Shown here piece by piece: positions 1 to 64,000 of a DNA stretch of 64,000 bases. The position numbers were made by a program, and so were the translations under genes. The notes beneath the pieces were generated by a model, which worked only from the letters and a program-made list of their open reading frames with translations, was not told the DNA's origin and did not search any database. Each line of letters starts with the position of its first letter. The first letter of the stretch is position 1. The stretch is from assembly GCA_013298595.1 (NCBI GenBank), contig JAAFIG010000012.1, positions 50,297-114,296 of the forward strand, given 5' to 3'. The DNA is from Deinococcales bacterium (GTDB taxonomy: Bacteria > Deinococcota > Deinococci > Deinococcales > JAAFIG01).

Positions 1-2709
1 CGCTGTATCGGCAGTCACTGTGACTTGAACTTCATCTGAAGTTGAACCAGGTAATGTTTCTGGGATAATGGTGTACTCGCCGATTGGTAATTCAACTCGA
101 GCTGGCGTGGTGTAATTTGTGCCGTTAATTGTGAAGTTAATCGCTTCTAATGGGCTTGAAGTGTTACAGACTAAACTCGAGGCAGTAACGTTCAGCACAC
201 CCAGCGCGGCAACAACTTCGATGGTAGCACTGGCTTGATTGTTCTCGAGATTTGTTTCTGTTTCGTTACCCGTTACTTTGGCAGTATTTGTAAAACTACC
301 AACTTTGGTAGTACGAACTCGGGCTGTGACAGTAGCACTATCGCCGACTTTTAAGTTGCCGATATCGGCTGTCATCACACCGTTGGCAAATAAGACTCTG
401 CCATTGGTGCTGGTTTCACCACTGATGTAGGTCAAGCTCTCAGGCATTGGATCGGTAACAACCACACCTGTGGCGTCGCTTGGTCCGTTATTGGTAACAA
501 GGATGGTGTAGGTTGCTTCGCCACCAACAATGGTGTTATTTGGGTTGACGGTTTTCAAGATGGCTAAGTCAATGGTTTTGGCTTCTGGTGCTTTGACATT
601 GACAGTGCTGACGGCGACAACACCACAGTTTGGCTCGAGACTGGCTCGGACTGTACCGTTGACAATGGCTTTGGTGGCTTTGACCGAGATAGTAAAGACC
701 AATGGCTTACTGGCAGAAACAACACCAGAAATACGCAATGGCGTGGTGGCTTCTAAACCATTTGGCAGTGTGACATTGATGGTGGCTGGCACTGGTGTTG
801 CAAAAGCCGTTGTTGCCGTGGCTGTAAATGTGGTGGTATCACCAACATTGAGATCAGCCGTTGCAGGGGTTAATGTCAGACTGGTGCTGACTGCGTATTC
901 GACAGTTACATTAGCAGTTTTACCTTGTTCGACATTGACGCTGACAGGGTTAGCTGTTGCACCAGCAACGGGTGCTGGTGTCACTGTGACACTGCCTGGT
1001 TGCACAACCACGGTGGCAGGAGCAATCACATTTTGACCAGCAACACTGACATTGACACCTGTAATTGGAGTGCGTTGACCGCAAACCAAAGCAACTGCAT
1101 TGATTTGCACACTCGAGCGTGGGCAATCTGCAACAAATCGGATACGTCCTGAAGCACTGGTGACAGTGACTCGGCTACTCGAGTTGACTGTACCTTGTCC
1201 CTCGAGGATACTTGCCGAAACTGGCGACCAGCATGGTGGCAGGGTTGGTGTGACAATACGGCTCGAGCCTGCACCTGCAACGGTGTAGCTCGCACCTGGG
1301 ATTGGTTTACCTGTGGTGTCTACAACTTCGACGCGCAATGGTGGGGTTGGTTTGCCTGTTGCCGAGAAACCTGGTAAGTAAGCGAACAATGGTTTGTCAT
1401 CTAAACGCAAACGGAATGCAAAGGAGTTGCTGAATTGACGGGTGGTTGGTAACAAACGCCCAACAATTTTCCAAGTGCCCAATAGTTCTTGGGTGACCAC
1501 AAAAGCATTGGTTGCCCATTTAGCGTCTTCAGAGGCGGTCAGTTGAAAACGGCGACCATTTGGTGCGACCAAGGTTAGAACAATTTCTTTGTCGCCGTCA
1601 GCATCGTAATTGCTGAGTTTAACGGTTTTACCAAGGGTGGTTTTACCAAGTTCAACAAAGGCAACCAATTGATCTTGATTAAATTGTCCTCGAGCATTGA
1701 CTGTGAATTGGCTGGCTTCAACACGGAAACCAGAGGTTGCACGCAAAGCATATGAGTTCTTACCATTACCATCTGAAAGGATATTAAATGGATAATAGCC
1801 TGGTTTGAGCGGACCTTCGTATAAAGCTTCGTAACTATGGGTTGTACCTGGGGTGTAACTGCGTTGGAACAATGTTGCGCCTGTTGGGTCTTTCAACGTG
1901 AAATCGCTTTTTAGGGTTGCAGTTTTACCGTACAACTCGTCACCGTAGTAAGTAACTCGGTCTCGACCATTGGCATAATCGTTACGATTAATTTCTGGGC
2001 TGAAAACTTCGATACTCGAGACGCGTCCTGCTGCGCCTGCTGGTACGTTAATGCGGTAATCGTCTGGGTCTATACGCCAACCAACTTGTTTACCAACGCT
2101 CACCAATGGCAAAGCAATACTCGAGCCGTTGCCTTTAGCAGCATTGAGGGTTGTGCCATCTTGAACAGTTGGGTTGGTACGCGATGATGGCGTTGGTACG
2201 CCACCTGGTTGAGCTGGGGCAGCTGGTTGTGTTCCAGCCGCAGGTTTAGGAGCTGGGGTTGAACCCACTGGTTTTGGTGTTCCAGGCGTTGTGGCGGCTG
2301 GCTTTGGAGCAGGAGTCGTTGCAGCAGGTTTAGGGGCTGGAGTAGTAGCTGCTGGTTTTGGAGCAGGCGTTGTGGCGGCTGGTTTTGGTGCTGGTGTCGT
2401 CGCAGCAGGCTTAGGAGCTGCTGGAGTCGCTGGTTTAGGTGCGGGAGTAGTAGCAGCTGGTTTAGGCGCTGGTGTTGCTGGTTTAGGCGCTGGTGTTGCT
2501 GGTTTCGGTGCTGGTGTTGCTGGTTTCGGTGCAGCAGGTTGTGCTGGGGCAGCGACACCAATCCGACGAGGCTTAGGTTGAGGTGTTGTTTGTGCATAAG
2601 AAAGCGTAGCAGAACCAATGAGTAAAGCAGAAAACACAATAACTCGAGCGGATAATGCTGTGGACTTTATTGCCGCACTCGAGCGGCGAAGCAAACGTAG
2701 CGGATTCAT
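1..2709 (-). CDS. Secreted DUF11-repeat protein with Pro/Ala/Lys stalk (C-terminus beyond window)
   Basis: The open frame of 903 codons reads from ATG at 2709 off the left edge, so the C-terminus is missing. The start overlaps the upstream stop as ATGA and has GAGGTGA 6 bases before it, so it is probably translationally coupled to the giant gene. The N-terminus is a signal peptide: basic MNPLRLLRR, a hydrophobic core, and likely cleavage after SYA. A low-complexity stalk of PAPKPAT/PAPKPAA units follows (DNA about 2220-2560), then about 350 residues of unassigned beta-rich sequence and DUF11-like repeats, including one starting IDLAILKTVNPNNTIVGG near 540. Proline-alanine stalks often span a cell wall or envelope layer, and DUF11 repeats form Ig-like stalks of surface proteins. 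The role is inferred to be cell-surface or S-layer associated. No anchoring motif is visible in the part present. Confidence 0.85.
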   Translation of the reverse strand, partial: MNPLRLLRRSSAAIKSTALSARVIVFSALLIGSATLSYAQTTPQPKPRRIGVAAPAQPAAPKPATPAPKPATPAPKPATPAPKPAATTPAPKPATPAAPKPAATTPAPKPAATTPAPKPAATTPAPKPAATTPAPKPAATTPGTPKPVGSTPAPKPAAGTQPAAPAQPGGVPTPSSRTNPTVQDGTTLNAAKGNGSSIALPLVSVGKQVGWRIDPDDYRINVPAGAAGRVSSIEVFSPEINRNDYANGRDRVTYYGDELYGKTATLKSDFTLKDPTGATLFQRSYTPGTTHSYEALYEGPLKPGYYPFNILSDGNGKNSYALRATSGFRVEASQFTVNARGQFNQDQLVAFVELGKTTLGKTVKLSNYDADGDKEIVLTLVAPNGRRFQLTASEDAKWATNAFVVTQELLGTWKIVGRLLPTTRQFSNSFAFRLRLDDKPLFAYLPGFSATGKPTPPLRVEVVDTTGKPIPGASYTVAGAGSSRIVTPTLPPCWSPVSASILEGQGTVNSSSRVTVTSASGRIRFVADCPRSSVQINAVALVCGQRTPITGVNVSVAGQNVIAPATVVVQPGSVTVTPAPVAGATANPVSVNVEQGKTANVTVEYAVSTSLTLTPATADLNVGDTTTFTATATTAFATPVPATINVTLPNGLEATTPLRISGVVSASKPLVFTISVKATKAIVNGTVRASLEPNCGVVAVSTVNVKAPEAKTIDLAILKTVNPNNTIVGGEATYTILVTNNGPSDATGVVVTDPMPESLTYISGETSTNGRVLFANGVMTADIGNLKVGDSATVTARVRTTKVGSFTNTAKVTGNETETNLENNQASATIEVVAALGVLNVTASSLVCNTSSPLEAINFTINGTNYTTPARVELPIGEYTIIPETLPGSTSDEVQVTVTADTA
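2220..2560 (-). repeat. Pro/Ala/Lys low-complexity coding repeat
   Basis: Degenerate tandem units of about 15-24 bp encode PAPKPAT/PAPKPAA in the partial gene at 1-2709. The opposite strand reads as a Gly/Ala/Val shadow frame, which is not a gene. Confidence 0.85.
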
Positions 2710-63802: not shown

Positions 63803-64000
63803 ATGGCAAAACAATTAGTATTTGACGAAAGTGCTCGTCGCTCTCTCGAGCGCGGCGTGAACGCAGTAGCAAACGCCGTAAAAGTCACCCTCGGTCCAAA
63901 GGGACGCAATGTTGTGCTCGAGAAGAAATTCGGCAGCCCAACCATCACCAAAGACGGTGTTAGTGTTGCTAAGGAAATCGAATTAGAAGATAAGCTCGAG
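63803..64000 (+). CDS. groEL: Chaperonin GroEL (start only)
   Basis: 66 codons are visible to the right edge; the rest is outside the window. ATG 63803 has AAGGAG before it. Reads [65 protein letters not shown], in segments typical of the GroEL equatorial domain; the ATP-site residues [10 protein letters not shown] and [11 protein letters not shown] are intact. Even this highly conserved gene carries CTCGAG at 63845, 63918 and the very end. Confidence 0.98.

Follow-up and report, generated by a model that had tools for sequence, protein, structure and literature searches.

The closest described counterpart of the element analysed here is HIP1 (GCGATCGC) of cyanobacteria, a palindrome that is hyper-abundant throughout the genome, is found in many relatives, has been lost in some, and whose cause is debated. 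Its density was tabulated by Elhai (2015) at 300-2,700 per Mb. Alternate HIPs, i.e. GGCGCC in Calothrix PCC 7103, rCCGGy and GCsGC, are palindromes of hexamer scale that replace HIP1, one of them being the most over-represented hexamer among 97 cyanobacteria; each occurs in one or two strains only and is accompanied by a methyltransferase (MTase) of known type. In Nocardia the hexamer CTCGAG itself, with an orphan MTase, forms local clusters near dnaA that correlate with the MTase, and a genome-wide excess is not reported (Blow 2016, PMC4752239). The uptake sequences of Neisseriaceae and Pasteurellaceae are also short, genome-enriched words, but longer, sparser and tied to competence.

We studied CTCGAG in a window (the whole stretch of DNA analysed, 64,000 nt) of genome G000, a relative of Thermus, and in its relatives. 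With 5,927 copies per Mb this motif lies above the range tabulated for HIP1, from which it also differs by its sequence, its phylum, the lack of any shared MTase found and a demonstrable enrichment of the dipeptide it encodes. Unlike the alternate HIPs it spans families with no MTase group in common, and unlike uptake sequences it has no extended consensus of ~9-12 bases. In its behaviour it resembles the HIP class, whose descriptive features it shows: a palindrome over-represented tens-fold, present genome-wide in genic and intergenic DNA, and recurrent within a clade of which some members lack it. The HIP-like interpretation offered by an earlier, sequence-only reading of the window is sustained, the motif being palindromic, genome-wide, both coding and non-coding and common to relatives, but the element is not HIP1; CGATCG is depleted to 0.10 in G000 (464 kb). 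No comparable published case in Deinococcota was found in the searchable literature, which most subscription papers lie outside, so priority is not proved.

The window contains 309 CTCGAG (mean spacing 207 bp), on both strands since the motif is a palindrome, against 5.56 expected from dinucleotide shuffles (largest shuffle 14) and 5.2 from a first-order Markov model. The 4,582,226-bp genome contains 27,159, i.e. one per 169 bp. The enrichment is therefore stronger than the sequence-only reading had claimed, and the excess is genome-wide, not limited to the window. The reversed control GAGCTC, of equal base composition, occurs 15 times in the whole genome; as GAGCTC is itself avoided there, a ratio drawn from this control alone would be overstated. 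The enrichment is properly gauged against models of low order or against the reversed string. An order-4 Markov model, the check that had been suggested, expects 517 copies for 618 observed with both strands of the window counted; it is uninformative because CTCGA and TCGAG mostly sit inside CTCGAG itself. A test restricted to palindromes had also been suggested: in a 464 kb sample of G000 (eight contigs; L001-L020 plus the window) the observed-to-expected ratio (O/E) was 58.6 for CTCGAG and 1.8 for the palindrome ranked second, GATATC. In the window the bases flanking the motif are close to background composition, with no consensus beyond the six bases; the unit is thus the hexamer.

Many other palindromes are strongly avoided in the same 464 kb: GGCC occurs 9 times vs 1,476 expected, CCGG stands at 0.10, and GAGCTC, CCGCGG, GGCGCC, GGGCCC, AGGCCT and CGGCCG have zero copies. 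The avoided specificities far outnumber the MTases found.

The features of the window are collected in Table 1. The count of 23 copies given earlier for the densest stretch was exact, one per 113 bp, and the lower yet raised density in the repeat-protein genes was likewise seen. Of the two conserved genes said to carry the motif, tyrA was confirmed, and no GroEL was found among the open reading frames scanned. The sparsest 4-kb stretch sampled in G000 (L009:8041-12181, contig C3) has 5 CTCGAG; it encodes a single protein that combines Prok-E2, ThiF and JAB domains, a bacterial ubiquitin-like module, and was perhaps recently acquired.

Table 1. Features of the window and their CTCGAG content.
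Feature	Position	Strand	CTCGAG
Whole window (motif count)	1..64000		309 copies
Large DUF11/SdrD_B/DUF7933 repeat-protein genes	1..31583	-	lower yet raised, ~3-4/kb
Surface-type repeat protein of 6,337 aa (DUF11/SdrD_B/CshA/Big_9)	2706..21719	-	
Three further DUF11/DUF7933 proteins, after the 6,337-aa repeat protein	21730..31583		
tyrA (prephenate dehydrogenase; PF02153/PF20463), conserved gene	31703..32809	-	6
Metabolic and transport genes (GH42, aminotransferase, P450, peptide transporter, AMP-binding, enoyl-CoA hydratase)	34574..53549	+	mostly 5-8/kb
Densest stretch of the sequence-only reading, two genes (beta-lactamase-family PF00144 and M29 metallopeptidase PF02073)	41225..43818	+	23

In our reading, the hyper-abundance of CTCGAG is upheld by a drive acting on DNA and directed at no protein, codon or RNA motif. 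In G000 the intergenic density (5.61/kb) is close to that of coding DNA (5.98/kb), and within genes the motif uses all three codon phases, as had been noted. An origin in codon usage or in a peptide motif does not agree with these two observations. CGA codons, said to occur largely within CTCGAG, do so for 37% only. Synonymous-codon shuffling of 780 kb of coding DNA left 352 CTCGAG vs 4,663 observed. About 67% of Leu-Glu dipeptides are written CTCGAG, and Leu-Glu is 2.39-fold above the expectation from amino-acid composition, for 1.00 in the case of Glu-Leu. This excess climbs with motif density: 1.11 in Thermus, 1.18 in G004 and G041, 1.40 in Meiothermus-like genomes, 1.67 in G008, and at the top densities 2.2-2.4 in the window's family and 2.44 in G012 and G016. 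Since Leu-Glu is over-represented in step with CTCGAG, the DNA-level drive has altered proteins.

The 111 phylum genomes examined all belong to one order, Deinococcus itself being represented by a plasmid alone; "Meiothermus-like" and "Thermus-like" are inferred labels, and composition-corrected O/E values were obtained from samples of 5-100 kb. The four genomes examined of the window's family (G000-G003) carry 5.9-6.5 CTCGAG per kb, with O/E of 15-42 in G001-G003. Disparities appear in the sister family: 7.7 per kb in G016 (O/E 34), 6.2 in G012 (52), 3.6 in G008 (6.7) and 0.3 in G004 (0.9). O/E is 8-12 in Meiothermus-like genomes and mostly 2.5-6 in other relatives, with 2.5 in a Thermus-like genome and 1.5 in G041. 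On plasmids it is 0.43 (D. radiodurans MP1), 3.8 (Allomeiothermus pMESIL01) and 1.6 (T. thermophilus pTT27). A 10 kb sample of G058 (L296), of 37% GC and from another family, gave 17.7-fold; other parts of the order may therefore also contain strongly enriched genomes. Among the viral matches listed, mostly high-GC contigs, there was no clear case of a motif-rich phage, and a search of plasmids with TyrA gave no close relative.

Conservation of position, which the sequence-only reading had suggested checking, was for most sites not observed between G000 and G003. For 163 conserved Leu-Glu pairs CTCGAG is present in both genomes at 85, in one only at 22 and 38, and in neither at 18, while independence predicts ~81 shared. 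The states of the sites are thus nearly independent: positions turn over, and most sites are not fixed over that distance. Site loss was followed outside the window's family, in 20 kb aligned across 20 genomes, Meiothermus-like ones and their allies. At 85-95% identity CTCGAG was retained in 0.755 of comparisons and matched hexamers in 0.543, figures that are descriptive since the alignment pairs have common ancestry. Where Leu-Glu is kept, CTCGAG is retained at 0.90, CTGGAA at 0.73 and CTGGAG at 0.51; CTTGAG exceeds even CTCGAG, but from few places. The loss being slower than that of matched hexamers and of synonymous pairs, the figures speak against a process confined to creating sites; it would protect them as well.

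CTCGAG sites nevertheless decay, and their products linger. The transition products TTCGAG, CTTGAG and CCCGAG are intergenically 1.9 to 4.9-fold over expectation (1.9 to 2.3-fold for TTCGAG and CTTGAG), for about 0.5 to 1.7-fold in the case of transversion products. Between genes, sites more than 10 bp apart are spaced almost at random, and there is no sign of saturation at one site per interval. An exclusion below 40 bp exists in coding DNA only and probably reflects protein constraint. Regularity of spacing was therefore dropped as a sign of selection, nearest-neighbour under-dispersion being restricted to coding DNA and absent intergenically. The log O/E of the motif is 4.2-4.3 intergenically and 4.0-4.6 overall.

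To account for the observed enrichment, distribution, dipeptide effect and patterns of loss and spacing, we propose, tentatively and at somewhat under an even chance, that CTCGAG is a HIP-class element maintained by a drive at each site, most likely a factor biasing mismatch repair or recombination toward the strand bearing CTCGAG. Mutated and intact copies would form a heteroduplex, in which a sequence-specific factor would bias mismatch repair or homologous recombination to the CTCGAG-bearing strand; sites would thereby be replenished and protected, individual copies having no function of their own. Each site would be driven independently of the others, the log bias being about 4 to 4.6. Random intergenic spacing is expected if each CTCGAG acts alone and, together with positional turnover, makes us lean to biased repair or recombination over selection. 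The reduced loss fits both. The excess of transition decay products suggests that conversion of standing near-misses is inefficient, which counts somewhat against biased repair; moreover, selection at every site would predict much the same pattern. Mutational bias, which had been listed among the possible meanings, survives if it is taken widely to include biased repair or conversion, and is then one of the two readings that we still entertain.

The other is weak genome-wide selection, in which CTCGAG would bind a factor acting on the chromosome (nucleoid, segregation, replication or initiation of repair) and each copy would make a small contribution. We regard it as a fair possibility, though less likely than biased repair or recombination. 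The reduced site loss in the Meiothermus-like alignment, the clade-wide persistence of the motif across families and its reach into amino acids (Leu-Glu) all speak for it. Against it stand the absence of intergenic regular spacing or saturation, positions that are not fixed between genomes, more decay products than a simple balance of mutation and selection would leave, and the lack of any known factor.

No enzyme accounting for the abundance of CTCGAG was found. MTases of PF00145 (C5), PF01555 (N6/N4), PF07669 (Eco57I-type) and PF02384 (HsdM-type) from 14 genomes were compared all-against-all, and for D12 MTases (PF02086) the sole match in G000 was weak; among the five MTase families searched no group is present in every one of the four genomes that make up the most enriched family. 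XhoI (PF04555) occurs in four of the 111 genomes, none of them in the two most enriched families. It is intact beside MTases in G018, G042 and G048, and broken by a stop beside an MTase in G009 (L377, L378, L379, L380). The MTase type of the first three is 61-65% identical over ~265 aa to a Thermus-like MTase; that of G009 shares 48-53% identity with MTases from two genomes without a XhoI gene, G037 and G015. These two neighbours of XhoI are candidate CTCGAG MTases, a specificity that we infer from their neighbourhood. A lowering of density by XhoI carriage in genus g10 (0.69-0.97 in carriers vs 1.65-1.97/kb) was considered and rejected, the reversed control dropping proportionally.

These candidates, with the cyanobacterial precedent, favour the methylation-coupled ratchet that Elhai proposed for HIP1 (PMC4390886), in which an orphan CTCGAG MTase would mark sites and methyl-directed repair would keep the mutations that create them. 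The ratchet appears unlikely here: besides the absence of an MTase group common to the four genomes, the most enriched family matches the XhoI-neighbour MTases of either type weakly only, and G059, although enriched 12-fold, has no relative of the G015/G037 MTase among its retrieved MTases. The HIP class generally comes with a cognate orphan MTase; the search for a CTCGAG MTase that had been recommended gave no orthologue group common to the enriched genomes in the five families covered, and the reading of the motif as a methylation site is so far without support.

It was also suggested that CTCGAG might be a tag for DNA uptake or recombination; competent cells would then favour the DNA that bears it. 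Thermales are known for natural competence, but known uptake sequences are 9-12 bp long, usually oriented and present at ~1/kb; a palindrome of 6 bp with no flanking consensus, at about 6/kb, makes this very unlikely.

Less probable still is very-short-patch repair of the Vsr type, which would correct T:G mismatches to C at methylated CTCGAG. E. coli offers a precedent, a motif being enriched there by Dcm/Vsr. Among the 16 genomes tested, Vsr (PF03852) was found in G008 only, where the gene adjoins a C5 MTase (contig C11, ~80,001-100,000; L280) in a motif-poor stretch (O/E 0.9 vs 6.7 elsewhere in that genome), and TTCGAG and CTTGAG, its expected substrates, are enriched instead of depleted. 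This stretch looks horizontally acquired, and its paucity of CTCGAG would be expected if acquired DNA converts slowly. The factor is probably neither Vsr nor a XhoI restriction-modification system. Finally, an origin of the enrichment in preferential cutting at CTCGAG by the Holliday-junction resolvase RuvC is barely plausible: D. radiodurans RuvC cleaves (G/C)TC^(G/C), which CTC^G matches on both strands at the centre of the palindrome (PMC9601230), but CTCGAG is at 0.43-fold on D. radiodurans plasmid MP1 and the equally fitting GTCGAC is depleted to 0.07 in G000.

Taken as a whole, we give close to an even chance to the following account: the element would belong to the HIP class though not found in cyanobacteria, exceed in density the range that Elhai gives for HIP1, be driven at the DNA level by a factor other than Vsr or a shared MTase, and have enriched the proteome in Leu-Glu dipeptides, of the order of ten thousand by extrapolation from 780 kb of coding DNA. 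The cause of HIP1 is open within one phylum, and a stronger second case in Deinococcota makes the question testable elsewhere; the culturable, enriched Meiothermus and the nearly unenriched Thermus offer a natural contrast. As the Leu-Glu effect shows, a DNA-level drive can leave a visible mark on the composition of a proteome, which matters when codon bias and amino-acid usage are interpreted as adaptation.
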